In this document: piece by piece, positions 24,266 through 46,400 of the stretch
Layout of the letters: each line of letters begins with the position of its first letter
Position numbering within the stretch: the first letter of the stretch is position 1
Origin: Aradus depressus
Taxonomy: Eukaryota > Arthropoda > Insecta > Hemiptera > Aradidae
Length of the DNA: 64,000 bases
Direction: 5' to 3'
NCBI GenBank assembly: GCA_963662175.1
Contig: OY759217.1
Span: 5,706,562 to 5,770,561, forward strand
Notes under the pieces: generated by a model
Seen by the model: only the letters and a program-made list of their open reading frames with translations
Databases searched by the model: none
Told to the model about the DNA's origin: nothing
Program-made: the position numbers and the translations under genes

Positions 24266-24544
24266 AGTAGGGAAGAAAAGGGCATTCTGGCCCCACGATA
24301 ATCCGCAAGATGGCGGCGTCCCCCACCCCAGCCCGGCCTCGCCTCCGCCCGGCATGGCCTTGCCCCAGCATGGCCTTGCCCCCACTCCAGCCTTGCCCCC
24401 CACCCCAGCATGTCCTCGCCCCGGCCTCGTCCCCCGCCCCGCATGGCCCCAGGGCCGTGCCCCCTCCCCGTGCCCCCATTATTTCTTTTTGTTTTCGATG
24501 TCGAAAGAACTAGAAGTATCTTATAGCTTTTTATTTTCATAATA
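24266..24544 (+). repeat. Polinton left terminal inverted repeat (279 bp)
   Basis: It matches the reverse complement of 39,430-39,708 with about three substitutions and no indel. The middle (about 24,310-24,480) is very GC-rich and made of irregular CCCCAGCnTnGCCTnGCCCC units, unlike the AT-rich element interior. The inner end just touches the stop codon of the adjacent zinc-protein gene. Confidence 0.95.
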
Positions 24545-24860
24545 ATAGTACATAATTTTCTTTTAGAGCTCGGTCTGTGAGTATTTTGCCTAACTCGGCA
24601 TCGCATTTGCGGCACCAGTTTACAATATCTGGGTGGATTTCCGTTAAATTATTTGCGCATAGCGAACATTTTAAATTTTCATAAAATTGCAAAATTTCAT
24701 CCTCTTCTTTGCAGGTAATGTGGACACTTGTTGGCGACAGCATATGAAGGGGTACGTTGTCCGCGCACCGGCCGCAGATTTTCTGCCCATTGTGGGTAAA
24801 ATACCGGCAGGCGACACAACGGTATGCTGCACAATTGATGCATGGCTCGATAGCAGGCAT
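24537..24860 (-). CDS. Cys-rich zinc-binding protein of the Polinton (107 aa)
   Basis: It has five CxxC pairs: residues 7/10, 15/18 and 29/32 in the first third, then CSLC and CRKC near the C-terminus. A compact treble-clef or zinc-ribbon fold is likely. I start it at the ATG before PAIEPCINC. The TTTTTTCAG just upstream looks like a splice acceptor, so the 5' leader may be spliced, as in the two neighbouring genes. It is the leftmost gene, and its stop overlaps the inner end of the TIR by a few bases. The function is unknown. Small zinc proteins in such elements could act as regulators or in nucleic-acid binding, which is inference. Confidence 0.7.
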   Translation of the reverse strand: MPAIEPCINCAAYRCVACRYFTHNGQKICGRCADNVPLHMLSPTSVHITCKEEDEILQFYENLKCSLCANNLTEIHPDIVNWCRKCDAELGKILTDRALKENYVLLL

Positions 24861-26573: not shown

Positions 26574-26754
26574 AGGCTTTCTTGTTTATATTCTTATTAC
26601 CTCCGACCAGTGAGCAGTCTGTATCCGCGAGGTTTTTAGTTGTGAAATTTTATATATTGGAAGCCGTGCTGTGTCGGCTTAAACATTTAAACGGTGGATA
26701 ACGTTCCGAGTCTTGCAATCTGGTAACTTTTAGTAAAAAAAATACTGATCCATC

Positions 26755-27942
26755 ATGTTCGCCTGTGATCAATGTAACGTTGTGCTTGACCGGAAATCTA
26801 CCCTGGATATCCATAAAGCGTTTACACATGGAGTTAAACCAACTTTTGTTTGCGAAAAATGCTTGTCTAGTTTTACTAAATCGTGTGATCTAAAGCGGCA
26901 TGGGATTAGTTGTGGAACGACCTATACGTGTAAGCACTGTGGCCATAAATTTTCAAACGGATATCACGGGCGCCGTCATGAGTCCATATGTAAGGATGGT
27001 CCAGGGGCTAAAAAATCAAAAAATGAACCCCCCAAGAAAATGTTATTAAGTACCCTGCCTGATGAATGCAACCTAACCCCATATGAAACATCGTTTGAAG
27101 GGCGTGTAAAATCATATTATATTCGTTCCGATAAATATGGCGACTTGGGAGAGTTTTTGAAAGATGTCCGGGAATGTGTAAAGAGTAAAATCATTGAAGA
27201 GCTAAACCATCACACAGCCCTCAAAGTAAATTTCATGGCTGAATGTCTTTTTGAAAATATTGCCGGGGATAGATCTGATAAAGCTTTTAAGACCAAAAAT
27301 AAGCCCGTTTACAAAGACACCGATCTTGATGATTATTTAGACGTGGCCTTCAAAAAAATAGTCACGGAAATGGAAGAGGCCCAGATGAACAAAAGCGGGT
27401 GGAGTCTTTATGCCGTAGATGGGATGCGCCTTCGCATTAACAAATATCGGCCTTTACGGGGGAGTAGTTACATACCTTTACCAGGAGAAATTCAAGCCCG
27501 AAAAGCGTGTATTAATGTACAAGACAATGACCAAGAGTGCTTTAAATACGCGATCTTATCGAAATTTGTGCGAAAAAACCCCCAAAGACCCGATAACTAT
27601 AAGGTTCTCGAGCATCCCTACGACTTCTCGGGCATCTCATTTTCCACCCCTCTTCATGAAAAAAAAAAGTTTGAAAAGTCCAACAATATATCCATAAATG
27701 TGTTTGCGTTGGATGGGCAAAATAATGTTTACCCAATTAAAGTCGCGCGTGAAGAAAAACCCGACTTTCGCGATCTTCTTTTGCTTGATGATGGCAAAAA
27801 GCAACACTATGTTTACATAAAAAATTTTGAAAAGCTTGTGCGCTCTCAAATTACTAAACACCATAGTAAAATTGTAATCTGCAAAAGATGCTTCACACAC
27901 TATGACAATCAACAAAACTACTACTATGACAAAATATATTGA
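26755..27942 (+). CDS. polB: Protein-primed DNA polymerase B, N-terminal part (395 aa, ends by frameshift)
   Basis: Three zinc fingers open the protein: residues 4-25 (C2H2), 33-53 (C2HC) and 59-79 (CxxC...HxxxC). Next comes the N-terminal region typical of Polinton polymerases, including KACINVQDNDQECFKYAI. It ends in the ICKRCFTHYDN zinc element, after which the frame runs into a stop. The rest of the polymerase continues in the next frame from 27,902. In related elements a segment with the exonuclease I aspartate/glutamate lies between these parts. Here it is missing. The gene would replicate the element DNA from a protein primer. Confidence 0.9.
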   Translation: MFACDQCNVVLDRKSTLDIHKAFTHGVKPTFVCEKCLSSFTKSCDLKRHGISCGTTYTCKHCGHKFSNGYHGRRHESICKDGPGAKKSKNEPPKKMLLSTLPDECNLTPYETSFEGRVKSYYIRSDKYGDLGEFLKDVRECVKSKIIEELNHHTALKVNFMAECLFENIAGDRSDKAFKTKNKPVYKDTDLDDYLDVAFKKIVTEMEEAQMNKSGWSLYAVDGMRLRINKYRPLRGSSYIPLPGEIQARKACINVQDNDQECFKYAILSKFVRKNPQRPDNYKVLEHPYDFSGISFSTPLHEKKKFEKSNNISINVFALDGQNNVYPIKVAREEKPDFRDLLLLDDGKKQHYVYIKNFEKLVRSQITKHHSKIVICKRCFTHYDNQQNYYYDKIY

Positions 27943-30118
27943 TGATGTAGCTTTGAAAATTTCCAAAATTTATAAAAATAACGTCCCAATCATAATGTCA
28001 AATGAAGAGGGGGAAAATTGGGGTGCCGCCGTTCAATGTTATCTTTGTGGGGGTAACTTTTCGGAAAATAATCCTAAAGTTAGGGACCATGATCATTTAA
28101 CGGGTAAATATAGGGGTGCGGCCTGTAACAGCTGTAATCTCAGGTGTAAGACCCCCTCTTATATTCCGGTTATATTACATAATTTATCTAACTATGACGC
28201 AAACATCATTGTCTTAGAATTAGGTAAAGATTCGGAACGTGTTGATGTTATTCCAAATTCCGAAGAAAAATATATAAGTTTCACAAAGCATGTCCATGGT
28301 TTGAAACTTAGGTTTATTGACTCTTACCGGTTTATGAGTAGAAGCCTGAACTATCTAGTTAGCATGCTTCCTGAAGCTGCGTTTAAGGAAACCTCTAAAT
28401 ACTTTACGGAGGGTGAGTTGCTGCTGGTTACCAAAAAGGGAGTATTCTGCTATGATTATGTTGATTCGTGGGATAAATTGGAGGAAAAAAGTTTGCCACC
28501 CCGGGATAAATTCTTTAATACCTTGACCGATACCCCGCTAAGCGAGGAGGATTACAAACACGGTCAGATTGTGTGGGAAACTTTCAAGTGCTCCACCCTC
28601 GGCGAGTACAGCGATACCTATTTGAAAACTGACGTATTACTTCTCGCTGATATTTTCCAGAATTTTCGAGATGTTATGATGAACTCTCACAAGGTGGATC
28701 CCGCCCACTACTTCACAGCTCCCGGAATGACGTGGGACGCCATGTTAAAATATACGGGAGTGAAGTTGGAACAATTACAGGACTATGATATGGTGCTTTT
28801 TTTCGAGAGGGGTATTCGCGGAGGTTTGTGCCAGGTTTCCCATAGGTATGCCTGTGCCAATAATAAGTATATGCCCGAGTATGATCCGAAAAAGGAATCC
28901 TCTTATATTGCGTACTTGGACGCAAATAATCTTTATGGTCATGCTATGAGTAGGCCTTTGCCATACGGGGGGTTTCAGTGGGTGAAGGATCCCGAGAAAA
29001 TTGATGTTCTAAAGTTGGATGATGAGGGCGATGAGGGGTGTGTCCTGGAAGTTTCCCTCTCGTATCCCTCAGAGCTGCACTCGTTGCATAATGATCTCCC
29101 ATTTTTACCTGAATCCATTATTCCGCCAGGCAGTAAAGTCCAAAAATTAGTTGCACATTTAAATCCTCGGGAGCGGTATGTTGTACATTACGTCAATTTA
29201 AAGCAGGCTATTAATCATGGTCTTCAAGTCACAAAAATTCATAGAGCTATACAATTTAAACAGTCCCGGTGGCTAGAATCGTATATCAACTGCAACACAG
29301 AATTACGTAAAAAGGCCAATAATGATTTTGAGAAGGACTTTTATAAACTTTTAAATAATGCTGTCTTTGGAAAAACAATGGAGAACATCCGTAAGCGTAT
29401 GAATATGGAATTAGTTACCAATCCGAAAAAACTCATGAAACTAATATCAAAAGCCAATTTCTTAGACCGCATCATTTACCACGAAAACCTGGTTGCTGTA
29501 ACTATGAGTAAAACCAAATTACTGTTCGATAAACCAATATTTGTTGGCATGACTATTTTAGATTTGTCCAAAGAGGTTATTTACGCATTTCATTATGACG
29601 TCATGTTAAAAAAATACGGAGCGGACATATTAAAACTTTGCTATACTGATACCGATAGCCTAGTGTATTTGATACACACCGCCGATTGGTATGAGGATAT
29701 GAAATCAATGGCCCAATACTTTGACACGTCCGACTTTCCGACCGGCCACCCGCTGCATTCTGATCTAAATAAAAAAGTCCTAGGTAAGTTTAAGGATGAG
29801 ACGAACGGGAAGATTACGAATAAATTCGTGGGGTTGAAGCCAAAAATGTACGCCATGGATATCAGTAAAAATATAAAAAAAGTTATAAAGGGGGTTAAGA
29901 AAGCTTCTGTTGCTAAAAATATAACATTCGAAGATTATGAAAATGTACTTTTTAATGGGGAAACCGTTTTCACCGATATGAGAATGATTCAATCAAAAAA
30001 GCACAAACTGTTTACTGTTAAAATGAGCAAGAAAGCGTTATCCTCCGAAGATGACAAACGTATTATTTTATCTGATGGCATACATACTTTAGCTCATGGA
30101 CATTACAAAGCAACCTAG
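27902..30118 (+). CDS. polB: Protein-primed DNA polymerase B, C-terminal part with palm domain (738 aa)
   Basis: An HNH/endonuclease VII-like zinc element comes first (CYLCGG at 46-51, RDHDHLTGKYRGAACNSC at 61-78). Then come exonuclease-like motifs (HNLSNYDAN, then YLKTDVLLLADIF at 240-252) and the polymerase motifs: A as YLDANNLYGH (D340), B as KLLNNAVFGKTMEN (482-495) and C as YTDTDS (581-586). The palm residues look intact. Exonuclease motif I is absent because of the deletion at the junction with the upstream ORF, so proofreading would be lost even if the frames were rejoined. The start shown is simply the first ATG of the frame. I regard the two ORFs as one damaged gene. Confidence 0.93.
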   Translation: MTINKTTTMTKYIDDVALKISKIYKNNVPIIMSNEEGENWGAAVQCYLCGGNFSENNPKVRDHDHLTGKYRGAACNSCNLRCKTPSYIPVILHNLSNYDANIIVLELGKDSERVDVIPNSEEKYISFTKHVHGLKLRFIDSYRFMSRSLNYLVSMLPEAAFKETSKYFTEGELLLVTKKGVFCYDYVDSWDKLEEKSLPPRDKFFNTLTDTPLSEEDYKHGQIVWETFKCSTLGEYSDTYLKTDVLLLADIFQNFRDVMMNSHKVDPAHYFTAPGMTWDAMLKYTGVKLEQLQDYDMVLFFERGIRGGLCQVSHRYACANNKYMPEYDPKKESSYIAYLDANNLYGHAMSRPLPYGGFQWVKDPEKIDVLKLDDEGDEGCVLEVSLSYPSELHSLHNDLPFLPESIIPPGSKVQKLVAHLNPRERYVVHYVNLKQAINHGLQVTKIHRAIQFKQSRWLESYINCNTELRKKANNDFEKDFYKLLNNAVFGKTMENIRKRMNMELVTNPKKLMKLISKANFLDRIIYHENLVAVTMSKTKLLFDKPIFVGMTILDLSKEVIYAFHYDVMLKKYGADILKLCYTDTDSLVYLIHTADWYEDMKSMAQYFDTSDFPTGHPLHSDLNKKVLGKFKDETNGKITNKFVGLKPKMYAMDISKNIKKVIKGVKKASVAKNITFEDYENVLFNGETVFTDMRMIQSKKHKLFTVKMSKKALSSEDDKRIILSDGIHTLAHGHYKAT

Positions 30119-31174: not shown

Positions 31175-31846
31175 TTAACACTGGTTAAACCAATAACATG
31201 AAGGGCTGTGTCTCTTATGGTACATGTGCGGGCAGACCGTCTGACTTATATCACATTTCAGGTTACAGTAGACACATTTCGCATTATCATTTAAGTGTTT
31301 CACAAACCCATGAAAAGCCAGCACTTTATTAGTAGATTTACGAAAGGTTTTTTCACGAACCTTTTCATTGTACAAATCAGTTTGAGACGGATGTTTGCTT
31401 ATCCAATCCTCCAACTTGAAGGCTTGATTGAGTGAACAAGTGTAGGATGTCCCGCCATGGAAATTACAAGTAGTCTCGTGTGGGGGTAATTTTTTCAAAT
31501 TTGGACAACCATAGTCGTGTAAGTCATAAACTGGTTTTTGAGCAATATTTTCAAGGAACGCACACTTCTCCAGTCCTTCCGCCCAGATGAATTTGGATGA
31601 TGCAGTAGCTGCACGCAAGAGGTCTTCAAGACTTATATATTCCGTATCTCCATACCACCAAGGAATATTATGAATATGTTTCTTAACCCATTGATTTACA
31701 CGACTAGTTTTCAAAGATTCGTCAGCATTCTGAGGTGGGAGGAAAAACCAGTGAAGTGATGTATTGTGTGTGAGAACTGTCAGCTCCTTGACAATAAATA
31801 CACCGTCCCCCTGATAACCTTGGAAATCCACAATCGCTGAACTGTT
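31175..31846 (-). CDS. Exonuclease-like (DEDD-type) protein, in-frame ATG missing
   Basis: The frame opens with SSAIVDFQGY, then VFIVKELTVL and a HWFFLPP segment. A WWYGD-type segment, CPNL, C..H and a CSLNQA region follow. This order is that of insect and Polinton proteins related to DEDDh 3'-5' exonucleases, though the catalytic DxE is DFQ here, so activity is doubtful. The C-terminus has CVYCNLKC and CPHM, probably zinc-binding. No ATG precedes the conserved start in frame. The nearest ATG (31,853) is in another frame. A mutated start, a small frameshift or an unseen exon could explain this. A TATAAATA lies at 31,911-31,902. Confidence 0.6.
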   Translation of the reverse strand, partial: NSSAIVDFQGYQGDGVFIVKELTVLTHNTSLHWFFLPPQNADESLKTSRVNQWVKKHIHNIPWWYGDTEYISLEDLLRAATASSKFIWAEGLEKCAFLENIAQKPVYDLHDYGCPNLKKLPPHETTCNFHGGTSYTCSLNQAFKLEDWISKHPSQTDLYNEKVREKTFRKSTNKVLAFHGFVKHLNDNAKCVYCNLKCDISQTVCPHMYHKRHSPSCYWFNQC

Positions 31847-31901
31847 GATCCATGTTTTCGGCGGGTAGATAGAAAACTAATGGTGAGGCTCACTTCACAG
31901 T

Positions 31902-31911
31902 CTATTTATAG
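31902..31911 (-). promoter_or_regulatory. TATA box for the exonuclease-like gene
   Basis: CTATAAATAG on the minus strand lies about 50 bases upstream of the first ATG. It overlaps the stop codon of the major capsid gene. Confidence 0.55.
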
Positions 31912-33123
31912 CTTTCTCACAAGGCCAGTAAGAGGATTCAATTCAATTAATTTATCGTGTATTATGAGACAGTATGCTCGAGTATTCGGAGGAAATGGCC
32001 TGGTCGCTTGAAGGTCCAAACGAATGTCAACAGTAGCAATCTTCAAAGTGTCTTGCTGTCTTGATACATCAAGAACTATAATGGGGGCGATCTCACTAAA
32101 GTCCTTTCTTGAGAGTAGTGGTTCACCATAATTCTTACCATAATAGCTCATTTGAAATCTTTGATACATGTCGTAAAGGAGAGCATATCGACCTTTATCA
32201 AAATCAAGGTTTAAATCATCGTATGGAAACATTTCACTGTTTAGATACAATTTAATATTGGACAAGTTACAGGCATCAAATTGGCTCGAATCCTTCACCT
32301 TGTTGTCAACTCTATCTGTCTGAAATGCTACAATTATGTATCGAGGTTTTTCCAGTGCTGAACTTGTCTTGACATTCCATGTATTTTGGGTGTTTTCTGG
32401 TAGGGCAGGGTACTCTGACAATTCCCATGATCGCAAAGGAATTGTCAACGTCTGATCTCGGTCTAAAATCCGTAATAGCCGTAATCTTTGTATATCGGAT
32501 ACTTTTATATGCGGTACTCTCCAGTTCACTTTGGCCAAAGTGAGTTGAACCTTGTCTTCCAAAATTGAATTTGCGCCACTCTTTGACCTAATTAGAATAA
32601 GCTCGTGCTTTGAGTGGATAATGACCTTTTTGAAATCGTCTAGAAATCCGATGAGAGTGTTGAGGGGGAGACATACATTAAAATGGCCGTCTTTGTCTAT
32701 AGAAATAGCACCATCTTTCTTGGGCATCATCCAACCTGCATTACCTAATCCGCCGACTTGGTTAGGTGTTAAAGATACGTACCCCTTCAAAGTACTCACT
32801 ATGCCCGGATTGCGGACTTTATCAATTTCCACACCATTCAATTCATAGCGGATTTCATCAAACATAAACGCAAAGGCATTATTTGCCAACTTTGCAGATG
32901 ATGTAGTTATTTTTTTATCAGGTCCCTCCTTTTGAATAGATCCTTCCAAATATAGATAACTTGCACATGGTAATATGTACAAATCCTGCTGGTGAATGGG
33001 TATGCGAATCTCATCAGAGTTCTTCAAATTTGCAGTATTAAAGGGATTATATGTATGAAACTGCAGCTCTGTAATACTATCATCAAACCGGACTTCTTCT
33101 GTGATGTCTAGAATGTCGTTCAT
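31906..33123 (-). CDS. Major capsid protein of the Polinton (405 aa)
   Basis: It starts with MNDILDITEEVRFDDSI. The strand-rich sequence, the segments FNTANLKNSDEIRIPIHQQD, NAFAFMFDEIRYELNGVEID, and GYVSLTPNQ, and the position between the minor capsid gene and the exonuclease-like gene match the Polinton major capsid protein (often called PY). That protein folds as a double jelly-roll and would form the hexon-like trimers of a virion. The ORF is intact. Its ATG overlaps the stop of the preceding 47-aa gene (ATGA). A TATA box inside that gene (33,240-33,231) gives it a possible promoter of its own. Confidence 0.85.
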   Translation of the reverse strand: MNDILDITEEVRFDDSITELQFHTYNPFNTANLKNSDEIRIPIHQQDLYILPCASYLYLEGSIQKEGPDKKITTSSAKLANNAFAFMFDEIRYELNGVEIDKVRNPGIVSTLKGYVSLTPNQVGGLGNAGWMMPKKDGAISIDKDGHFNVCLPLNTLIGFLDDFKKVIIHSKHELILIRSKSGANSILEDKVQLTLAKVNWRVPHIKVSDIQRLRLLRILDRDQTLTIPLRSWELSEYPALPENTQNTWNVKTSSALEKPRYIIVAFQTDRVDNKVKDSSQFDACNLSNIKLYLNSEMFPYDDLNLDFDKGRYALLYDMYQRFQMSYYGKNYGEPLLSRKDFSEIAPIIVLDVSRQQDTLKIATVDIRLDLQATRPFPPNTRAYCLIIHDKLIELNPLTGLVRKL

Positions 33124-33263
33124 TGTCGTTTCACTTTCAAACCTAGCCTTTTCAAAAATCGAATATTGGCCGGAGTCAATTGTTGTCTCATGTACGGTCT
33201 CGTACTAATGGGACGAGGCTGATGTTCTAAACTTATATACCGGGGTCTAAAGTCAATCGCCAT
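33120..33263 (-). CDS. 47-aa basic protein between the two capsid genes
   Basis: It begins MAIDFRPRYI and ends in LTPANIRFLKRLGLKVKRQ. A short ORF in this position, with an NIxFLKxLGxK-type end, recurs in Polintons as far as I know. It overlaps the end of the minor capsid gene by 11 bases and shares ATGA with the major capsid start, so all three are tightly coupled. The basic tail suggests nucleic-acid or capsid contact, which is inference. Confidence 0.65.
   Translation of the reverse strand: MAIDFRPRYISLEHQPRPISTRPYMRQQLTPANIRFLKRLGLKVKRQ
33231..33240 (-). promoter_or_regulatory. TATA box for the major capsid gene
   Basis: GTATATAAGT on the minus strand lies inside the 47-aa ORF, about 110 bases before the major capsid ATG. 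Confidence 0.5.
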
Positions 33264-33975
33264 TTTTCTTTATATGAATGTGAATGGTTATAGTTTCGTT
33301 TCTAAAGTTGATTGGATGACCGTCTTGGTCGACTATTCGTAATGTAATGTTGTCAAGGGATTTGGTATTAACTCCTAAATATACAATGGGTGATGGTGTC
33401 TCTACAATTTTGTACCCTGCCTCAACCGTTGGATAAAATTCATACAGTGTGTGAACTGGTTTTCCATTTCGATACGCGCCAAAAACAATGTTGCATTCAA
33501 TAGCAATTGTATTGACTTTCATCATTTTTACAATCCCCGGTGAGGTATGATACCCGTCTCCAGGATGTAGGGCACGCTTTGTCTCATCTATACTATCATC
33601 CCACCCCAATAAAGATCCAATGGAATTTTTCTTACCCGATGTATTAAAAAATACCGTTTTTGTACATCTCAATTCGGTTTTTAATGTATTATTATTGGCT
33701 CGGATTATAACATGATCACCTTTTCTCCTGAATGTCATATGTTCTTGTAAATATTCTGCGAGCGCTTCCAACTCATACGTCCCCATTGGTATTTTAATTT
33801 TTTCATCACCATAATAGAACATGTCATTCTCCCCCTCAATAATGTTAGGTATTGAATTATATGTGGTAAAACCTAAAAGTCCAATCGAATACTCTCCATC
33901 TGATAGGTCTATTGCGGGAAAAATGTCTGCACTTAAAATGTTCTCGGCACCCGAAAGGGTAAAGCTGTAACTCAT
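33253..33975 (-). CDS. Minor capsid (penton-like) protein of the Polinton (240 aa)
   Basis: It starts MSYSFTLSGAENILSADIFP and has the features GEYSIGLLGFTTYNSIPNI, a GTYELEALAEYL segment and GSLLGW. These place it with the Polinton minor capsid protein (PX), a single jelly-roll vertex protein. I chose the ATG at 33,975 because it overlaps the protease stop as ATGA. A longer frame upstream has no ATG. The ORF is intact. Confidence 0.82.
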   Translation of the reverse strand: MSYSFTLSGAENILSADIFPAIDLSDGEYSIGLLGFTTYNSIPNIIEGENDMFYYGDEKIKIPMGTYELEALAEYLQEHMTFRRKGDHVIIRANNNTLKTELRCTKTVFFNTSGKKNSIGSLLGWDDSIDETKRALHPGDGYHTSPGIVKMMKVNTIAIECNIVFGAYRNGKPVHTLYEFYPTVEAGYKIVETPSPIVYLGVNTKSLDNITLRIVDQDGHPINFRNETITIHIHIKKNGD

Positions 33976-34343
33976 GACTGCATGTTGCACTGCCCCTTAT
34001 TCTCATTATAAAGGAATTGGATGCATAAGTGTCCGCAATACGGAGTGTTCCAATCCTGATATCGATCGCGATTGTATTCGATTGTACACCCTTTTAAATA
34101 TCTGATAATTTCATGTGGAGGTGGTAAATTTCCAAAGGAATCGAAATATTTGACTTTATTTCTACGTTTGACATAGCAAACCCAATGTGATCCGGGTTCA
34201 TTGAGTCTATTAAGGTTCACAATGCCGGATTCATATATTTTTGGTTTCTCTGGTAATGCGTCTCTCATGAATATTCCTCTGAAATGACATAGGTTTTTAG
34301 CATATTTTGCCAAGTCCAGATTTGTAAGAGCTCTATCGGGTAG
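33972..34343 (-). CDS. Adenain-like cysteine protease, frame opens directly after a UGA-CUA stop
   Basis: Counting from the first codon after the upstream stop, the conserved start ALTNLDLAKYAKNL is at 5-18, followed by FRGIFMRDALP (21-31), SHW with catalytic His53, YFDSFG with Asp68, RYQDW with Gln96 and YCGHLC with nucleophile Cys103. The order His-Asp-Gln-Cys is that of adenovirus-type maturation proteases, which cut virion proteins during assembly. The only ATGs lie inside the conserved region (first at residue 26), so the protein needs another way to start. The frame is continuous with the upstream PLA2/core gene through UGA CUA, a known leaky-stop context. At 123 codons it is short for the family. 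Confidence 0.85.
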   Translation of the reverse strand, partial: LPDRALTNLDLAKYAKNLCHFRGIFMRDALPEKPKIYESGIVNLNRLNEPGSHWVCYVKRRNKVKYFDSFGNLPPPHEIIRYLKGCTIEYNRDRYQDWNTPYCGHLCIQFLYNENKGQCNMQS

Positions 34344-35096
34344 TCAAATTTGAGTTTTTCTTTTTCTGTACGGTCTAACATATAGGCCGTATCCTTTTCT
34401 GTATGGCCTCACATATAATCCTTGACCAATCTTTTGACCTTCCATTGTTCTATTATGTCTTTTCATTTCCTCCAATTTTGCCCTTGCATTCTGAACATCA
34501 GATACGGTTTTAGCTATAGCCGACGCACCTCCAGCTAAACTACCGAGAGCGGACAGACCTGCAAATAAGGGTACGAGAAAGGGTAATACTCCACCGGTTT
34601 TAGGCAATGGGAGCACTCTTGGTGTTTTGGTAATTTTCCATTTTTGTAAATATCGTTTAGCCTTTTTTAATGCAATAACTGAGGCTTTATCAATAGGTAA
34701 ATGATGGCGTACTCGTGCAGCTTTTATAAGTTTGCCAAATGAGCTACCACGTAGTCCCGAACCCATTTTGACTTTGGCTTTCATTGCGTTAGTTACAACC
34801 CAAGCAGCCGTCTTCTCCCCCCACTTTGCCTCTTTAGATTGCACTCCTGCCCAAGCTTTGTCTGCCAAGATTCTATCTGCTGCGTGTCGCTGAGATAAAT
34901 CTTTAGTTTTTGAATAGGATATATCGTGGTCACGACAGGCTTCGTCTAGAGGATTAATTCCTCCAATACCTCGGGCTAAGCGTACTTGTAGGTGGGTGCC
35001 AGGACCGCAAAAATTATAACCTGGGATGTGAGCTTCAAATGGTAGCTTATTGATCAGAGTGTTTACTATGGTGCCTCCTACTATCTTTCGTTTCAT
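34344..35096 (-). CDS. Phospholipase A2-like / virion core protein (250 aa)
   Basis: Residues 27-61 contain the PLA2 calcium loop YNFCGPGT and the catalytic DEACRDHDISY (His57, Asp58), as in the parvovirus capsid PLA2 domain. Residues 169-196 form a Gly/Ala-rich hydrophobic stretch like the membrane-active part of adenovirus pVI/pX-type core proteins. The basic C-terminus carries GLYVRPYRK twice (226-234 and 237-245). PLA2 domains of this kind help particles cross endosomal membranes. I infer the same role here. The gene shares a TATA region with the divergent ATPase gene. Its UGA stop is followed by CUA, and the protease frame continues from it. Confidence 0.85.
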   Translation of the reverse strand: MKRKIVGGTIVNTLINKLPFEAHIPGYNFCGPGTHLQVRLARGIGGINPLDEACRDHDISYSKTKDLSQRHAADRILADKAWAGVQSKEAKWGEKTAAWVVTNAMKAKVKMGSGLRGSSFGKLIKAARVRHHLPIDKASVIALKKAKRYLQKWKITKTPRVLPLPKTGGVLPFLVPLFAGLSALGSLAGGASAIAKTVSDVQNARAKLEEMKRHNRTMEGQKIGQGLYVRPYRKGYGLYVRPYRKRKTQI

Positions 35097-35123
35097 ACTG
35101 AATGCTGGCGCTCATATCCATAA

Positions 35124-35138
35124 ATTTATATATACAGA
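35124..35138. promoter_or_regulatory. Bidirectional TATA region between core and ATPase genes
   Basis: ATAAATTTATATATA reads TTTATATATA on the plus strand, about 45 bases before the chosen ATPase ATG. It reads TATATATAAATTTAT on the minus strand, about 30-40 bases before the PLA2/core ATG. Confidence 0.55.
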
Positions 35139-35173
35139 TGCTTCTACCCAAGAGGTTTCATTCATTCATCGAG

Positions 35174-35863
35174 ATGCATTTGGAGTCTCAGCCTTTGCAA
35201 CTGAAAGTCGTTAATCTTCTTCCCAACGACAATGAAAATGTGGAATCTACGACGAGTCTGTTACCAGCAAGCCCCCTGATAATTGTTTGCGGAGCTAGTG
35301 GATCGGGGAAAACCAATTTGGTCATTAGCCTTCTCCTCGATGAAAATGGTCTTCGTTTTGAAAATGTTTACGTTTACTCTCGATCTTTATCACAGAGCAA
35401 ATACACTTTTTTGAAAGAGGTTATGGACACGATTCCTGAAATTGGCTATTACACATTCGATGACTCGGAAACTATGATACAATTGGAAGATGCAAAACCT
35501 CAATCGGTCTTTGTATTTGATGACGTCAGCCTTGATAACCACAATATAATCAGAAAATATTTTAGCATGGGACGGCATAAGTCTATATACCCTATTTATA
35601 TCGGGCAAACATATGCGCACATACCCAAACATTTAATTAGAGACAATGCCAACTTTTTAATACTTTTTCGTCAAGATCTGTTAAATTTAAAACATATTTA
35701 TCAAGACCACGTCAGCTCGGGTGATCTTACATTTGATTTGTTTGAAAAAATGTGTGCTCTATGTTGGGACGACGACCCATATGGGTTCTTTGTCCTTGAT
35801 AAAACCCGGGAGGTGGACAGGGGGAGGTACCGGAAGGGTTTTGACACATTTATATTAATGTAA
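35174..35863 (+). CDS. Genome-packaging ATPase, FtsK/HerA (A32-like) type (229 aa)
   Basis: Walker A is GASGSGKT (residues 40-47 from the chosen start) and Walker B is SVFVFDDV (about 111-118), followed by GRHKSIYPIYIGQTYAHIPK and FRQDLLNL. This is the packaging ATPase of Polintons and related viruses, which drives DNA into capsids. The frame is open from 35,102, but the TATA at about 35,127 would lie inside that longer reading, so I start at the ATG at 35,174 (MHLESQPLQL). The ATG at 35,138 is an alternative. No lesion is seen. Confidence 0.88.
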   Translation: MHLESQPLQLKVVNLLPNDNENVESTTSLLPASPLIIVCGASGSGKTNLVISLLLDENGLRFENVYVYSRSLSQSKYTFLKEVMDTIPEIGYYTFDDSETMIQLEDAKPQSVFVFDDVSLDNHNIIRKYFSMGRHKSIYPIYIGQTYAHIPKHLIRDNANFLILFRQDLLNLKHIYQDHVSSGDLTFDLFEKMCALCWDDDPYGFFVLDKTREVDRGRYRKGFDTFILM

Positions 35864-35890
35864 TGTATAGGCTCCCCTCCTCAGTTCAAA

Positions 35891-36818
35891 ATGAAACGGT
35901 CAATAGTACGCGATATTATAGAGACCTCTAAAGGGTTAAGAAAAAAATTCAAATCTATCAAGAGAGGATCTCTAGAGACCCCAGGAATCACTGGAAAAAA
36001 CATTCGAACCTGTTACTAAACCTCTTCAAGAATTAAGTGAAACTCTGAAAAGAGATAAAGTTTCCCCGTCAATGGCAAAAATTAAGGGCGTGAAGCAGAC
36101 TCATCTTCCCACCTCGATTGCACCGAAATCAAAGAAATTAGGAATATATGCAAAGGAAACACTTTTACCTACTACCATTACACCAACAAGTGGAACGTTT
36201 GGGAAAAGAAAATTTCAGCTTTACACTCATACATTCACTGCTACTCCTGATGACGAAGAGACTGAACAACCTTTCGAGGAAGTATTTGAAAGTTCATCGC
36301 CACCCCGTACACCTGTAGAAGAGGCACAGCGTTTTTCGCAAACATCGGCTGGTAAGGAGGAAGTTGAGCAGCTGTTAGAACATAGCAACATTGGACCTTA
36401 TTTGCATCCATATATAAAAAAGTTCCTGAGTGGTCAAACAAGAGACTTGGACGATCGCTATGGACTTCGCTTTCTCCCTAGCGGGGGATTAACATTGGGT
36501 GATACTAGCGTACAGGTGGACCATAATGATTTAACAGTCAATGGCCAATTTTATGAGGGAACGCCAGGGCTCTATCAACTTTTGTTTTTAAAAGAACCGA
36601 AGACTTACACGAATGAGGATTTAGATAAATATAAGGAACTGCTGACGGTTTCAAATGCTCATAAGCGACAGTTTAGTGAAGTGAAGGGTCTGAGCGGCAA
36701 TAGAGGTTCAAAGTATAAAACTATTATTTCGAAACTCTTTCCACCTACAGCCGCCGCCGCTAGACACTATCAAACACGTCAGACTAAACAATCACAATTT
36801 TCTGGCACGGGGTTATGA
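35891..36818 (+). pseudogene. Conserved Polinton protein (DUF8207-like) with a 1-nt frameshift
   Basis: It opens at ATG 35,891 with MKRSIVRDIIETS, a basic start typical of this family. At the A6 run 35,995-36,000 the frame is lost. The continuing frame (36,072 and upstream) goes on to the stop at 36,816. The C-terminal domain has RYGLRFLPSGG, LTLGDTSVQVDHNDLTV and EGTPGLYQLLFL, followed by NEDLDKYKELL. I believe this domain is catalogued as DUF8207. The function is unknown. One extra A in the run explains the break: the shift needed is +1, so a classical -1 frameshift signal would not help. The gene lies between ATPase and the 53-aa gene, on the same strand. Confidence 0.75.
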
Positions 36819-36980: not shown

Positions 36981-37040
36981 TCTTGACGGATCACGATGAA
37001 TCATACCCCCCAAGAGAAGACATGATGATTTAGTTCAACA

Positions 37041-37625
37041 ATGACCATCGACAAGTTCGGACGACATGTTAGCAAGCGGTATTACCGCAAGCAGCAAAAA
37101 TTATTCGATGCAGTTCAAGCATTGAGAGGAGAAGACCGATTCAGACAAGTTGAGGCTGGAAACGTCCTTGATGTAAACCATAGACGAATTATTAATTTGG
37201 GAGAGGGACTTGAAGGATCGGATGTTGTTTCTAAAAATTATGTCGACACTCAAGTAAAAACAGTAAGTCAGGGGCAGCAGCCAGGGGACAAAATTAACAT
37301 GAATGAGAAACGGCTAATCAACGTGGGGGAGCCAGTAGAGACATCTGACGCAGTCACTAAAGGGTACATAGACAAATCGGCAAAATTCTACACAGACCTC
37401 AAGAACTGGCCTGGAGCATTCATCAACGGCAGCAGAAAACGACTTGTAAATGTCAGCCCTCCTATAGATGGGAACGATGTAGTCACTCTCAGTTATCTTC
37501 AGAGAGAATTGGCTCAAATTGTCAAGAAATATGATAATGCTGGGTATGTGACAATGCAGTACTTACACCGAGAACTGTCAAAATATACTAAAAACCCCGA
37601 GCCCTCATTGCTTAAATTGGACTGA
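37041..37625 (+). CDS. Fibre-like protein with three phage-tail-type repeats (194 aa)
   Basis: Three copies of a 21-residue motif lie at 49-69, 91-111 and 134-154, each like R(L/I)INxGxPxxxxDAVxKxYVD. This motif is well known from trimeric tail-fibre and shaft proteins of phages and some eukaryotic viruses. Between and after the repeats are linkers and a short basic end. A trimeric surface fibre at the capsid vertex is a reasonable inference. The gene sits between the 53-aa gene and the integrase, all on the plus strand. The ORF is intact. Confidence 0.65.
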   Translation: MTIDKFGRHVSKRYYRKQQKLFDAVQALRGEDRFRQVEAGNVLDVNHRRIINLGEGLEGSDVVSKNYVDTQVKTVSQGQQPGDKINMNEKRLINVGEPVETSDAVTKGYIDKSAKFYTDLKNWPGAFINGSRKRLVNVSPPIDGNDVVTLSYLQRELAQIVKKYDNAGYVTMQYLHRELSKYTKNPEPSLLKLD

Positions 37626-37659
37626 GGCAAGTGTTGTACTATTAGTAGTATCATGCAAC

Positions 37660-38610
37660 ATGACTGGGAATATACTTTTAAAACCTCTAACTCCAAGGGA
37701 GATTGTTGTCAGCGAACTACATAAACCTGCTCGAGTTAATTACCCTAGGCGCAGGGTGCTTTTGAAAGGAGTGGATGACACTTGGCAGGCTGACCTTGTA
37801 GAAATGGTGCCTTATTGGCGAATCAATAAGGGATTTAGGTACATAATGACAGTGATAGACGGATTTTCAAAATATGCCTGGGCAATACCTCTGAAACGAA
37901 AAACAGGGCCAGAGGTAACAAAGGCTCTAGAGAGTATATTGGTTAACAGTAAACGGGTGCCCCATCTGTTACATACAGATGAAGGACGTGAATTCTACAA
38001 CTCAATATTTCAGAATTTAATGAAGAAGTACAATATTGATCATTATTCAACGTACTCGGGTAAAAAAGCTAGCATTGTTGAGCGCTTTAACCGCACCTTA
38101 AAAGGACAAATGTGGAAAATGTTTACCTTGAATGGAAATCATAAATTTGTCGACCTGCTGCCTGCTTTGCTTTCAAGATATAATAATACGCCGCATAGAA
38201 CAATACGTACCACCCCGACGAAAGTTGTTGAAAATAAGAATTTACAGAATGACCTTCTTGCGACTATTTATACTGCCCCAGCTACCCCTACTAAGCCTAA
38301 ATTCAAAATAGGGGATTCTGTACGGGTATCTAAATTGCGCAATGCATTTTCAAAAGCTTACCTAGCTCAGTTTTCACCCGAAATATTTAGAATCGCCAAG
38401 GTGCGTTTTACCAACCCACCCACATACCTTCTTCAAGATGTAAATAAGGAAGATATAAAAGGCGGATTTTATGAACAAGAGCTGCAGCATGTCCATGATC
38501 ATGAAGTCTATCTTATTGAAAAAGTTCTCCGAAGAAAAGGCAAGAACTTCAATGTGAAATGGATGGGATTTCCCGAAAAAACCTGGATCCGTTCATCAGA
38601 TTTAGTGTAA
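37660..38610 (+). CDS. int: Polinton integrase (rve) with C-terminal chromodomain (316 aa)
   Basis: The retroviral-type catalytic core has WQADLVEM (Asp45), HTDEGREFYN (Asp107) and SIVERFNRTLKGQ (Glu141), with 33 residues between the last two acids. A KFKIGDSVRVSKLRN segment and a chromodomain end (YLIEKVLRRKGK, then VKWMGFPEKTWI) follow at about 281-316. It joins the element ends to target DNA. The chromodomain could steer it to particular chromatin. A zinc-finger HHCC region is not seen in the short N-terminus. No frameshift is present. Confidence 0.93.
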   Translation: MTGNILLKPLTPREIVVSELHKPARVNYPRRRVLLKGVDDTWQADLVEMVPYWRINKGFRYIMTVIDGFSKYAWAIPLKRKTGPEVTKALESILVNSKRVPHLLHTDEGREFYNSIFQNLMKKYNIDHYSTYSGKKASIVERFNRTLKGQMWKMFTLNGNHKFVDLLPALLSRYNNTPHRTIRTTPTKVVENKNLQNDLLATIYTAPATPTKPKFKIGDSVRVSKLRNAFSKAYLAQFSPEIFRIAKVRFTNPPTYLLQDVNKEDIKGGFYEQELQHVHDHEVYLIEKVLRRKGKNFNVKWMGFPEKTWIRSSDLV

Positions 38611-39362: not shown

Positions 39363-39429
39363 TCAGTGGCGCGACGCTTCTTCAACTCATTACTTCAGGT
39401 TCTTTCGACATACCTCCTCCTTGTATTAA

Positions 39430-39708
39430 TATTATGAAAATAAAAAGCTATAAGACACTTCTAGTTCTTTCAACATCGAAAACAAAAAGAAATAATGGGG
39501 GCACGGGGAGGGGGCACGGCCCTGGGGCCATGCGGGGCGGGGGACGAGGCCGGGGCGAGGACATGCTGGGGCGGGGGGCAAGGCTGGAGTGGGGGCAAGG
39601 CCATGCTGGGGCAAGGCCATGCCGGGCGGAGGCGAGGCCGGGCTGGGGTGGGGGACGCCGCCATCTTGCGGATTATCGTGGGGCCAGAATGCCCTTTTCT
39701 TCCCTACT
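39430..39708 (-). repeat. Polinton right terminal inverted repeat (279 bp)
   Basis: This is the partner of the left TIR. Differences include CGAAA against TGAAA in the GTTTTCGATG segment and ATCTT against GTCTT near the inner end. It is followed by the target duplication TTTTAC. Confidence 0.95.
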
Positions 39709-39714: not shown

Positions 39715-40443
39715 CTCCATCAACTACCTGTAGAGGTAGATATACAGATTTTACAATCTAACTTGACAGTAAGGGTACATGATTAGAGCCCAAGCACTCT
39801 TTTAGACTCACATAAATCTGTCTGGAGTGCCCAGATAGAAGTTGATAGGTCAAATTGGATGCCGCCAAGGCGAAAGCCGAAATTTCCCCTGAAGCCAGAC
39901 TAGCAGAAGAGAAGGGGAAAATGGTGGGGGAAGGAACAATCGAGATCCTCGGTGAGGAAGAAATATGTTAAGTTAGTTAAAGTCTGGGAGTTGAAGTGCA
40001 GAGTTCGTTTGAGAGGGGCTCGGAGGAGTCTCCAGTCCAGAGATCAGTTCAAGTCGGACAGTTCAAGTCAGGGAGCCTTAGGAGGAGCAACAGCTCCAGT
40101 CCAGAGCTGCAGTTGAAGTCCAGAGCTAGAGGGAGAGTACAGAAGCCCCGAGAGTCGACAAGAAGTTCAGCCCGTCTTGCAGTCAGTTCCCAGTCTATCT
40201 ATCCGCCCCCCTGTCTCCATACAGCATATATGAAATAAGGTTTAATTTTATATTATATTTTTTTTAAATTTTAATTATTAATTCTTTGTAAATATATTCT
40301 TTTCAAATATGACTTGCTAGATTCTTTAGCTTGCTTCCCATGCTCATCCTAGATCAGTAATGGTTTAAGAACTTAGTATTTCAAAACTTTATTCGCTGAA
40401 CGAACTTTTCGGCTTTGGTTTATAGAAATCCAATTTATACATT
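39715..40443. other. Flank between Polinton and satellite
   Basis: A purine-rich patch at 39,990-40,150 repeats GnTCAAGTC, CCAGTCCAGAG and GCTGCAGTTGAAGTCCAGAG irregularly. An AT-rich stretch leads to the satellite. An 80-codon ORF here has no support. Confidence 0.45.
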
Positions 40444-43400
40444 AAAATCAGTAATATAAGTATCGTTCTATTAAATAGGCGGTCTGGCATCCTTTAAATA
40501 TTTTAATTTAATAAAATCAGTAATATAAGTATCGTTCTATTAAATAGGCGCTCTGGCATCCTTCAAATATTTTAATTTAATAAAATCAGTATTATAAGTA
40601 TCGTTCTATTAAATAGGCGCTCTGGCATCCTTTAAATATTTTAATTTAATAAAATCAGTAATATAAGTATCGTTCTATTAAATAGGCGCTCTGGCATCCT
40701 TTAAATATTTTAATTTAGTAAAATCAGTAATTTAAGTATCGTTCTATTAAATAGGCGGTCTGGCATCCTTTAAATATTTTAATTTAATAAAATCAGTAAT
40801 ATAAGTACCGTTCTATTAAATAGGCGGTCTGGCATCCTTCAAATATTTTAATTTAATAAAATCAGTAATATAAGTACCGTTCTATTAAATAGGCGGTCTG
40901 GCATCCTTTAAATATTTTAATTTAATAAAATCAGTAATTTAAGTACCGTTCTATTAAATAGGCGGTCTGGCATCCTTTAAATATTTTAATTTAATAAAAT
41001 CAGTAATTTAAGTACCGTTCTATTAAATAGGCGGTCTGGCATCCTTTAAATATTTTAATTTAATAAAATCAGTAATATAAGTATCGTTCTATTAAATAGG
41101 CGGTCTGGCATCCTTTAAATATTTTAATTTAATAAAATCAGTAATTTAAGTATCGTTCTATTAAATAGGCGGTCTGGCATCCTTCAAATATTTTAATTTA
41201 ATAAAATCAGTAATTTAAGTATCGTTCTATTAAATAGGCGCTCTGGCATCCTTCAAATATTTTAATTTAATAAAATCAGTAATTTAAGTATCGTTCTATT
41301 AAATAGGCGCTCTGGCATCCTTCAAATATTTTAATTTAATAAAATCAGTAATTTAAGTATCGTTCTATTAAATAGGCGGTCTGGCATCCTTTAAATATTT
41401 TAATTTAATAAAATCAGTAATTTAAGTATCGTTCTATTAAATAGGCGCTCTGGCATCCTTTAAATATTTTAATTTAATAAAATCAGTAATTTAAGTACCG
41501 TTCTATTAAATAGGCGCTCTGGCATCCTTTAAATATTTTAATTTAATAAAATCAGTAATTTAAGTATCGTTCTATTAAATAGGCGGTCTGGCATCCTTTA
41601 AATATTTTAATTTAATAAAATCAGTAATTTAAGTACCGTTCTATTAAATAGGCGCTCTGGCATCCTTCAAATATTTTAATTTAATAAAATCAGTAATATA
41701 AGTATCGTTCTATTAAATAGGCGGTCTGGCATCCTTTAAATATTTTAATTTAATAAAATCAGTAATATAAGTATCGTTCTATTAAATAGGCGCTCTGGCA
41801 TCCTTTAAATATTTTAATTTAATAAAATCAGTAATATAAGTATCGTTCTATTAAATAGGCGGTCTGGCATCCTTTAAATATTTTAATTTAATAAAATCAG
41901 TAATATAAGTATCGTTCTATTAAATAGGCGCTCTGGCATCCTTCAAATATTTTAATTTAATGAAATCAGTAATATAAGTATCGTTCTATTAAATAGGCGG
42001 TCTGGCATCCTTTAAATATTTTAATTTAATAAAATCAGTAATATAAGTATCGTTCTATTAAATAGGCGCTCTGGCATCCTTTAAATATTTTAATTTAATA
42101 AAATCAGTAATATAAGTATCGTTCTATTAAATAGGCGCTCTGGCATCCTTCAAATATTTTAATTTAATAAAATCAGTAATTTAAGTATCGTTCTATTAAA
42201 TAGGCGCTCTGGCATCCTTTAAATATTTTAATTTAATAAAATCAGTAATTTAAGTATCGTTCTATTAAATAGGCGGTCTGGCATCCTTTAAATATTTTAA
42301 TTTAATAAAATCAGTAATTTAAGTATCGTTCTATTAAATAGGCGGTCTGGCATCCTTCAAATATTTTAATTTAATAAAATCAGTAATTTAAGTATCGTTC
42401 TATTAAATAGGCGCTCTGGCATCCTTTAAATATTTTAATTTAATAAAATCAGTAATTTAAGTATCGTTCTATTAAATAGGCGCTCTGGCATCCTTTAAAT
42501 ATTTTAATTTAATAAAATCAGTAATTTAAGTATCGTTCTATTAAATAGGCGGTCTGGCATCCTTTAAATATTTTAATTTAATAAAATCAGTAATTTAAGT
42601 ACCGTTCTATTAAATAGGCGCTCTGGCATCCTTCAAATATTTTAATTTAATAAAATCAGTAATATAAGTATCGTTCTATTAAATAGGCGGTCTGGCATCC
42701 TTTAAATATTTTAATTTAATAAAATCAGTAATATAAGTATCGTTCTATTAAATAGGCGCTCTGGCATCCTTTAAATATTTTAATTTAATAAAATCAGTAA
42801 TATAAGTATCGTTCTATTAAATAGGCGGTCTGGCATCCTTTAAATATTTTAATTTAATAAAATCAGTAATATAAGTATCGTTCTATTAAATAGGCGCTCT
42901 GGCATCCTTCAAATATTTTAATTTAATGAAATCAGTAATATAAGTATCGTTCTATTAAATAGGCGGTCTGGCATCCTTTAAATATTTTAATTTAATAAAA
43001 TCAGTAATATAAGTATCGTTCTATTAAATAGGCGCTCTGGCATCCTTTAAATATTTTAATTTAATAAAATCAGTAATATAAGTATCGTTCTATTAAATAG
43101 GCGCTCTGGCATCCTTCAAATATTTTAATTTAATAGAATCAGTAATTTAAGTACCGTTCTATTAAATAGGCGCTCTGGCATCCTATAAATATTTTAATTT
43201 AATAAAATCAGTAATATAAGTATCGTTCTATTAAATAGGCGCTCTGGCATCCTTTAAATATTTTAATTTAATAAAATCAGTAATTTAAGTACCGTTCTAT
43301 TAAATAGGCGCTCTGGCATCCTTTAAATATTTTAATTTAATAAAATCAGTAATATAAGTATCGTTCTATTAAATAGGCGCTCTGGCATCCTTTAAATATT

Positions 43401-46400
43401 TTAATTTAGTAAAATCAGTAATTTAAGTATCCTTCTATTAAATAGGCGGTCTGGCATCCTTTAAATATTTTAATTTAATAAAATCAGTAATATAAGTACC
43501 GTTCTATTAAATAGGCGGTCTGGCATCCTTCAAATATTTTAATTTAATAAAATCAGTAATATAAGTACCGTTCTATTAAATAGGCGGTCTGGCATCCTTT
43601 AAATATTTTAATTTAATAAAATCAGTAATTTAAGTACCGTTCTATTAAATAGGCGGTCTGGCATCCTTTAAATATTTTAATTTAATAAAATCAGTAATAT
43701 AAGTACCGTTCTATTAAATAGACGGTCTGGCATCCTTCAAATATTTTAATTTAATAAAATCAGTAATATAAGTACCGTTCTATTAAATAGGCGGTCTGGC
43801 ATCCTTTAAATATTTTAATTTAATAAAATCAGTAATATAAGTATCGTTCTATTAAATAGGCGCTCTGGCATCCTTTAAATATTTTAATTTAATAAAATCA
43901 GTAATTTAAGTACCGTTCTATTAAATAGGCGGTCTGGCATCCTTTAAATATTTTAATTTAATAAAATCAGTAATTTAAGTATCGTTCTATTAAATAGGCG
44001 CTCTGGCATCCTTTAAATATTTTAATTTAATAAAATCAGTAATATAAGTATCGTTCTATTAAATAGGCGGTCTGGCATCCTTTAAATATTTTAATTTAAT
44101 AAAATCAGTAATATAAGTACCGTTCTATTAAATAGGCGGTCTGGCATCCTTCAAATATTTTAATTTAATAAAATCAGTAATATAAGTACCGTTCTATTAA
44201 ATAGGCGGTCTGGCATCCTTTAAATATTTTAATTTAATAAAATCAGTAATATAAGTATCGTTCTATTAAATAGGCGCTCTGGCATCCTTTAAATATTTTA
44301 ATTTAATAAAATCAGTAATTTAAGTACCGTTCTATTAAATAGGCGGTCTGGCATCCTTTAAATATTTTAATTTAATAAAATCAGTAATATAAGTATCGTT
44401 CTATTAAATAGGCGCTCTGGCATCCTTTAAATATTTTAATTTAATAAAATCAGTAATATAAGTATCGTTCTATTAAATAGGCGCTCTGGCATCCTTCAAA
44501 TATTTTAATTTAATAAAATCAGTAATATAAGTATCGTTCTATTAAATAGGCGGTCTGGCATCCTTCAAATATTTTAATTTAATAAAATCAGTAATATAAG
44601 TATCGTTCTATTAAATAGGCGGTCTGGCATCCTTTAAATATTTTAATTTAATAAAATCAGTAATATAAGTATCGTTCTATTAAATAGGCGGTCTGGCATC
44701 CTTTAAATATTTTAATTTAATAAAATCAGTAATATAAGTATCGTTCTATTAAATAGGCGCTCTGGCATCCTTCAAATATTTCAATTTAATAAAATCAGTA
44801 ATATAAGTATCGTTCTATTAAATAGGCGGTCTGGCATCCTTTAAATATTTTAATTTAATAAAATCAGTAATATAAGTATCGTTCTATTAAATAGGCGCTC
44901 TGGCATCCTTTAAATATTTTAATTTAATAAAATCAGTAATATAAGTATCGTTCTATTAAATAGGCGCTCTGGCATCCTTCAAATATTTTAATTTAATAAA
45001 ATCAGTAATTTGAGTACCGTTCTATTAAATAGGCGCTCTGGCATCCTTTAAATATTTTAATTTAATAAAATCAGTAATATAAGTATCGTTCTATTAAATA
45101 GGCGCTCTGGCATCCTTTAAATATTTTAATTTAATAAAATCAGTAATTTAAGTACCGTTCTATTAAATAGGCGCTCTGGCATCCTTTAAATATTTTAATT
45201 TAATAAAATCAGTAATATAAGTATCGTTCTATTAAATAGGCGCTCTGGCATCCTTTAAATATTTTAATTTAGTAAAATCAGTAATTTAAGTATCCTTCTA
45301 TTAAATAGGCGGTCTGGCATCCTTTAAATATTTTAATTTAATAAAATCAGTAATATAAGTACCGTTCTATTAAATAGGCGGTCTGGCATCCTTCAAATAT
45401 TTTAATTTAATAAAATCAGTAATATAAGTACCGTTCTATTAAATAGGCGGTCTGGCATCCTTTAAATATTTTAATTTAATAAAATCAGTAATTTAAGTAC
45501 CGTTCTATTAAATAGGCGGTCTGGCATCCTTTAAATATTTTAATTTAATAAAATCAGTAATATAAGTACCGTTCTATTAAATAGGCGGTCTGGCATCCTT
45601 CAAATATTTTAATTTAATAAAATCAGTAATATAAGTACCGTTCTATTAAATAGGCGGTCTGGCATCCTTTAAATATTTTAATTTAATAAAATCAGTAATA
45701 TAAGTATCGTTCTATTAAATAGGCGCTCTGGCATCCTTTAAATATTTTAATTTAATAAAATCAGTAATTTAAGTACCGTTCTATTAAATAGGCGGTCTGG
45801 CATCCTTTAAATATTTTAATTTAATAAAATCAGTAATTTAAGTATCGTTCTATTAAATAGGCGCTCTGGCATCCTTTAAATATTTTAATTTAATAAATTC
45901 AGTAATATAAGTATCGTTCTATTAAATAGGCGCTCTGGCATTCTTCAAATATTTTAATTTAATAAAATCAGTAATTTAAGTATCGTTCTATTAAATAGGC
46001 GCTCTGGCATCCTTTAAATATTTTAATTTAATAAAATCAGTAATATAAGTATCGTTCTATTAAATAGGCGGTCTGGCATCCTTTAAATATTTTAATTTAA
46101 TAAAATCAGTAATATAAGTACCGTTCTATTAAATAGGCGGTCTGGCATCCTTCAAATATTTTAATTTAATAAAATCAGTAATATAAGTACCGTTCTATTA
46201 AATAGGCGGTCTGGCATCCTTTAAATATTTTAATTTAATAAAATCAGTAATATAAGTATCGTTCTATTAAATAGGCGCTCTGGCATCCTTTAAATATTTT
46301 AATTTAATAAAATCAGTAATTTAAGTACCGTTCTATTAAATAGGCGGTCTGGCATCCTTTAAATATTTTAATTTAATAAAATCAGTAATTTAAGTATCGT

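Follow-up and report, generated by a model that had tools for sequence, protein, structure and literature searches.

A UGA-CU stop codon as a candidate readthrough junction between the PLA2/core and protease genes of a Polinton in Aradus depressus

How is a protease made when the conserved start of the protein lies upstream of the first AUG in its reading frame? The question is raised by a Polinton within the 64,000-nucleotide stretch of Aradus depressus DNA analyzed here (hereafter the window). The element has the terminal inverted repeats, rve integrase, double jelly-roll capsid protein, packaging ATPase, and adenain-like protease by which Polintons/Mavericks are recognized. Its features, in window coordinates, are as follows.

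24266-24552: Polinton left terminal inverted repeat (arms 98% complementary)
39422-39708: Polinton right terminal inverted repeat (arms 98% complementary)
34344-35096, minus strand: PLA2/core ORF (pVI-like by analogy), 250 amino acids and UGA (PF08398, E 6.2e-12)
34344-34346, minus strand: candidate leaky stop codon UGA, kept in families A-E (see below)
34341-34343, minus strand: CUA codon 3' of the UGA; CU conserved, with a variable third base among copies
33972-34343, minus strand: adenain-like protease frame, 123 amino acids and stop, with Met26 as the first AUG
33253-33975, minus strand: gene next downstream of the protease, its AUG overlapping the protease stop as AUGA; without Pfam match
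31906-33204 (stop to stop), minus strand: double jelly-roll major capsid ORF (PF21738, 2.7e-119)
35102-35863, plus strand: packaging-ATPase-like ORF (PF04665, 2.3e-06)
37552-38610, plus strand: rve integrase ORF (PF00665, 1.1e-13)
35124-35134, minus strand: TATA-like stretch TATATATAAAT, upstream of the PLA2 start

From its position, we take the gene at 33253-33975 to be that of the minor capsid (penton) protein. Two plus-strand ORFs (26749-27942 and 27878-30118) are presumably PolB-like, with zinc-finger and Endonuclease_7 stretches as their sole Pfam matches; this region (26749-30118) is split over two overlapping frames, as in a decayed copy, and by eye an ORF near 35889-36818 is broken, so that the window copy looks partly decayed. 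The element also contains a minus-strand ORF with a BIR (inhibitor of apoptosis) domain (31175-31876; PF00653, 7.5e-07) and a plus-strand ORF (37029-37625) that matches the profile of the phage T7 tail-fibre N-terminal domain (PF03906, 3.7e-08) and overlaps the start of the integrase frame. A tandem array of a 69-base unit (40443-56597; approximately 234 copies) adjoins the Polinton.

The minus-strand PLA2/core ORF (35096 to 34344) ends in UGA (34346-34344) followed by CUA, and the protease frame (34343 to 33972) is in frame with it and open for 123 codons from the stop, both as the initial annotation had described. The first in-frame AUG after the UGA, at 34268, specifies Met26, which lies within a conserved FRGxFM motif. 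That the N-terminus of the protease precedes any AUG, as had also been claimed, agrees with an AlphaFold model (mean pLDDT 92.6), in which a helix (residues 8-14) lies before Met26 and the first strand (residues 21-26) ends at it. The best Foldseek matches of this model were adenovirus proteases (E 2.8e-06 to the adenovirus 2 protease; TM-scores of 0.68-0.72, normalized by query length, for the listed adenovirus entries, PDB 1nln and 1avp), with weaker matches to Salmonella SseL, the poxvirus core protease, and SUMO proteases; a Pfam search with the 123-residue frame gave no match. In an alignment of 25 protease sequences, H53, D68, Q96, and C103 were invariant, and we presume these residues to have catalytic roles. 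Approximately 22 of the 120 protease homologues listed have a predicted start only at an inner Met (counted by names, with one false match removed); an annotation of this kind removes the ordered N-terminus.

To compare the junction among relatives, we turned to the host genome (698 Mb, 74 contigs), which contains at least 150 protease-like places (150 of 334 candidates scored), and read the junction in a part of them (loci L002-L127). This gave 93 distinct copies, comprising 66 intact in-frame junctions, 17 with the protease in the -1 class, one with another shift (L111), and 9 unreadable at the expected place, 4 of them from family G; a locus without a PLA2 match (L084) and 16 loci duplicating places already taken were excluded. 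The 66 intact in-frame junctions fall into five families (A 13, B 2, C 33, D 6, and E 12) as follows.

Family A (the window's): UGA CUA in 10 copies, UGA CUG in 1, UGA CUU in 1, UGA CUC in 1
Family B: UGA CUA in L015 and L017
Family C: UGA CUU in 32 copies, UAA CUU in 1
Family D: UGA CUA in 6 copies; four-codon spacer
Family E: UGA CUU in 12 copies; three-codon spacer

When the junction was read without requiring a stop, 73 distinct A-E copies were obtained, of which 71 have UGA CU; the exceptions are L101 of family C, with UAA CU, and L056, from which the junction has been deleted. Neither a sense codon nor an AUG start, which the initial annotation had set against readthrough, was found at the junction in any of these 73 copies of one genome. 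The same annotation had expected UGA-CUA to be conserved in relatives: UGA-CU is indeed kept in families A-E (one genome, three lineages), but CUA is not fixed. Because the copies show CUA, CUG, CUU, or CUC after the UGA, the kept signal would be UGA-CU and not UGA-CUA. Since families A-C are closely related, many copies are decayed or nearly identical, and most of those read are near-identical members of C and E, what counts is the three lineages (A-C, D, and E) and not the number of copies. Protease identity to the window's copy is 52-100% across A-E (52-58% for D and E). Synonymous sites are saturated between A and D and between A and E (dN 0.34-0.35) and nearly so between D and E (dS 1.58); given the saturation in the first two comparisons, an unselected stop and its context should have drifted. 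As the UGA families are close enough for one origin, it is retention and not repeated origin that carries the argument. In the element's own DNA, the probability of UGA CU given a stop is 0.019, and its presence in both other in-frame lineages (D and E) would occur by chance at approximately 3.5e-4 if these were independent random draws. UGA CU was also seen at 1 of 10 other ORF ends checked in the element, that of the gene next downstream (UGA CUU, followed directly by UAG).

We note that family C (L020, L036-L051, and others) is an amplified Polinton family of near-identical copies, which may spread without a protease of its own. A large proportion of the Polinton places listed lie on one small contig of the host assembly, C14 (16 Mb), which may represent a sex chromosome or some other chromosome rich in repeats.

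The extension behind the stop appears to be maintained as a protein. The dN/dS ratio of the protease is 0.14 and 0.19 in A-B comparisons and 0.22 between D and E, values (0.14-0.22 in these main comparisons) which indicate that it is under purifying selection; two copy pairs gave higher ratios (0.44 for the window's copy and L010, 0.36 for L015 and L017), perhaps due to decaying copies. Of 13 A-E copies translated, 12 have their first Met in the protease frame at residues 26-28, and L017 lacks one. It might be argued that the protease of the UGA clade is dispensable or vestigial and that no fusion is made, since most listed copies of the amplified family C carry two internal TAGs in the protease. 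However, the A-B and D-E comparisons point to purifying selection, and copies with an uninterrupted protease frame exist in families A, B, D, and E; we therefore regard a vestigial protease as quite improbable.

Is the UGA the natural end of the PLA2/core protein? A search found 1069 PLA2 homologues, of which the best 120 were examined; the nearest named ones among the matches listed are from Rhodnius prolixus. Of these 120 closest homologues listed, 118 are 241-295 amino acids long, the other two (344 and 349 amino acids) have an internal insertion, and none is a PLA2-protease fusion. Because the listed homologues end where the window's ORF ends, the UGA would be the natural PLA2 end and not a lesion in a fused gene. 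A search with the 386-residue open frame of L091, a copy of family G (see below), identified single-chain PLA2-protease proteins, by pattern, in 26 of 111 newly listed proteins, some of which derive from genome annotation, where the joining may be a product of the gene model, and others from contig predictions. Such proteins had been named beforehand as counting against readthrough, and they are indeed present in some distant relatives; since none occurs among the 120 closest PLA2 homologues listed, we read them as support for a natural fusion product, and a core-protease fusion is probably tolerated in nature. Their existence, together with the partly decayed look of the window copy (the two-frame PolB-like ORF and the broken ORF near 35889-36818), could also suggest that the stop is a decay mutation in a dead element, descended either from an ancestor with a fused ORF or, by an indel, from one with a -1 frameshift. 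But the stop stands at the usual end of PLA2, and families A-E have it in common beyond synonymous saturation, which largely refutes decay as its origin and leaves it highly improbable.

Beyond the scope of the initial annotation, we found that sister families in this genome have sites for -1 frameshifting at the corresponding junction. In families F, G, H, and H2, the protease lies in the -1 frame relative to PLA2, and an in-phase heptamer of the form X_XXY_YYZ is present with the protease open in the -1 frame. Specifically, 16 of the 17 tabulated -1 copies (F 9, G 6, and H 1) have an in-phase A_AAA_AAC or A_AAA_AAA from which the -1 frame is open into the protease, in each case with UAA as the PLA2 stop and the heptamer no more than 22 nt away from it; the 17th (L014) belongs to family B, is shifted by an indel, and has no heptamer. 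Nine more short stretches (H 3, H2 4, and G-like 2) agree with this layout, and in the H2 copies the PLA2 stop is UGA, not UAA. Families F, H, and H2 have A_AAA_AAC as their heptamer; G has A_AAA_AAA and, in addition, A_AAT_TTA. The length of the A-run at the junction varies among family G copies (L086-L094 and L097), and in two of them (L087 and L091) PLA2 and protease are in one open frame. No in-phase heptamer was detected in the last 45 nt of the nine A-D copies tested, and the single family E copy tested has one, 43 nt away; as the control, 1 of 11 ORF ends of the window's element has any heptamer (GGGTTTT). The derivation of family A from A_AAA_AAC by a simple indel was considered and dropped: by eye, the AAAAAC within its tail is in a different phase, and the protease frame would then be stop-less.

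The protein termini are consistent with these sites. The C-terminus is KN, or KN and up to six residues, in 103 of the 120 listed PLA2 homologues (this count includes P0012, which contains KN but ends in GKI), and it is KN alone or KN and one of F, Y, C, S, or L in 80 of them; such an end is what A_AAA_AAY followed by T would give in the 0 frame. Conversely, KKL directly precedes the conserved start in 5 of 120 listed proteases (P0154, P0157, P0158, P0163, and P0222), as would be expected of the -1 frame. The window's PLA2 clade, which includes the Rhodnius proteins and P0006-P0012, is without the KN end.

The sister families also bear on the possibility that the protease is translated separately, from its own transcript, from a near-cognate CUG, or by re-initiation after the UGA, the in-frame layout being accidental. 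A CUG at 34319 does lie inside the protease frame in a strong start context. At the junction of family F, which has its protease in the -1 frame and does not belong to the UGA clade, the protease has an AUG of its own. In the copies of A, B, E, and G examined, the protease stop shares bases with the start codon of the next gene (AUGA), an arrangement familiar from cases of re-initiation. However, CTG, TTG, GTA, GCT, or ATT occupies the position of the CUG in A-E copies, and a start at 34319 was rejected because the codon is not conserved. Further, between the TATATATAAAT stretch and the protease, the only other strict TATA match is at 34728, inside PLA2, with none from there to the protease. 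Separate translation also leaves unexplained why the in-frame families have UGA-CU whereas the -1 families have heptamers; it is disfavored because it fails to predict this match of frame relation to signal, and we consider it unlikely.

Readthrough of the UGA is thus favored by a leaky UGA CU context, an extension apparently under coding selection, and a stop and context kept across lineages. The initial annotation had also anticipated conservation of synonymous sites around the stop, and here the expectation failed: over codons -10 to 4, synonymous divergence was not reduced (pS 0.80 for A-C and 0.38 for A-B). Downstream of the stop, no consistent RNA structure was found either (z between -1.6 and +1.5, with -2.3 and -2.1 also obtained in family C). 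Synonymous constraint is expected of programmed readthrough and 3' RNA structure accompanies some cases, but neither is obligatory. A search of the region 31800-35200 against Rfam gave no match of any family at E values up to 5. This last result led us to reject decoding of the UGA as selenocysteine, a reading that the open frame behind the UGA might invite; the stop is also at a domain border and not at an active-site residue, and its context is classically leaky, so that selenocysteine has an almost negligible probability.

A branch of the protease tree (97/92) separates the UGA families from the rest. This single-clade result was not repeated in the PLA2 tree, where A-D group together (94/89) and E, represented by a partial row of 148 codons, stands apart with P0006-P0012 (89/79), although A-D, E, the Rhodnius proteins, and P0006-P0012 all fall in one 97/83 clade. 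A single switch in the ancestor of the latter clade would be the most economical account, though short of proof. Searches of viral contigs with profiles and sequences yielded nothing for the protease alone or for the protease alignment, and one distant record, with another layout and no junction, for the PLA2 alignment; a search of genome contigs gave no junction.

Overall, we conclude that the PLA2/core gene very likely ends in a programmed leaky stop, readthrough of which would yield a minor core-protease fusion; the readthrough proposed by the initial annotation is supported by the family comparison in this one genome. Most ribosomes would stop at the UGA and release the core protein, and a minority would place a near-cognate tRNA on the UGA in its UGA-CU context and continue in frame into the protease. 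If it works as gag-pro does in retroviruses, the fusion would fix the dose of the protease and take it into the particle beside its core partner; that readthrough takes place, at what ratio, and with this role in delivery is what we infer. Readthrough is the sole route to a full-length protease found in the UGA clade. The ancestor of the window's clade probably used an A_AAA_AAC frameshift, which then gave way to the leaky stop. On a broader scale, it seems likely that insect Polintons ration their capsid protease by recoding, with -1 frameshifting at A_AAA_AAC as the common state and one clade switched once to UGA-CU readthrough, both types coexisting in one genome. In adenovirus, an 11-residue cofactor of the protease derives from core protein pVI. 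The two proteases are alike in fold, but the adenovirus enzyme is approximately 200 amino acids long and made separately, whereas that of the Polinton has 123 residues and would be joined to its partner by translation. One idea, drawn from this precedent and from PDB titles, is that the core tail might act as a built-in cofactor, as in adenovirus.

Retroviral gag-pro uses UAG readthrough in gammaretroviruses and A_AAA_AAC -1 frameshifting in others. Both there and in the Polintons, a core or structural gene and a protease would be joined by recoding, with readthrough or -1 frameshifting in related elements; unlike gag-pro, the present case is predicted from sequence and concerns a dsDNA element, in which a PLA2/pVI-like protein would be the partner of an adenain-like cysteine protease. 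Alphaviruses use UGA CU(A) readthrough. UGA CU is described as a readthrough core motif, to which a following A adds (PMC4207609), and C after UGA as promoting near-cognate binding (PMC12233894); cellular genes reported to use UGA CU(A) include LDHB and MDH1 (PMC4207609 and PMC12233894). The Polinton junction resembles LDHB, MDH1, and the alphaviruses in having UGA and then CU(A) before an in-frame extension, but here the extension is a whole enzyme domain, and the base following CUA in the window is C, versus G in the strongest readthrough motif. In flies and mosquitoes, ancient readthrough candidates are reported to have UGA with a following C more often, although the significance was limited (PMC5100048). 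For the related adintoviruses, a 2024 preprint suggests slippery sites near the 3' ends of Penton genes and a similar relation for potential Hexon-Adenain fusions (PMC11071296). These putative sites, too, lie near gene ends; however, the passages of that preprint on these sites concern Penton and Hexon, not PLA2/core, treat frameshifts only, as hypothetical cases from KnotInFrame, and do not name stop readthrough (PMC11071296). The protease is listed among the conserved genes of vertebrate Mavericks, and Polinton particles are stated to be unobserved as of 2021 (PMC8097293). A non-exhaustive search of the Polinton/Maverick/adintovirus recoding literature found no published account of core-protease stop readthrough in Polintons.

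If the proposed readthrough is correct, Polinton assembly would follow a testable rule, in which a core-protease fusion is supplied at a fixed low ratio. It would further mean that dsDNA elements have converged on the gag-pro solution of retroviruses and that readthrough and frameshifting are interchangeable at one and the same junction.
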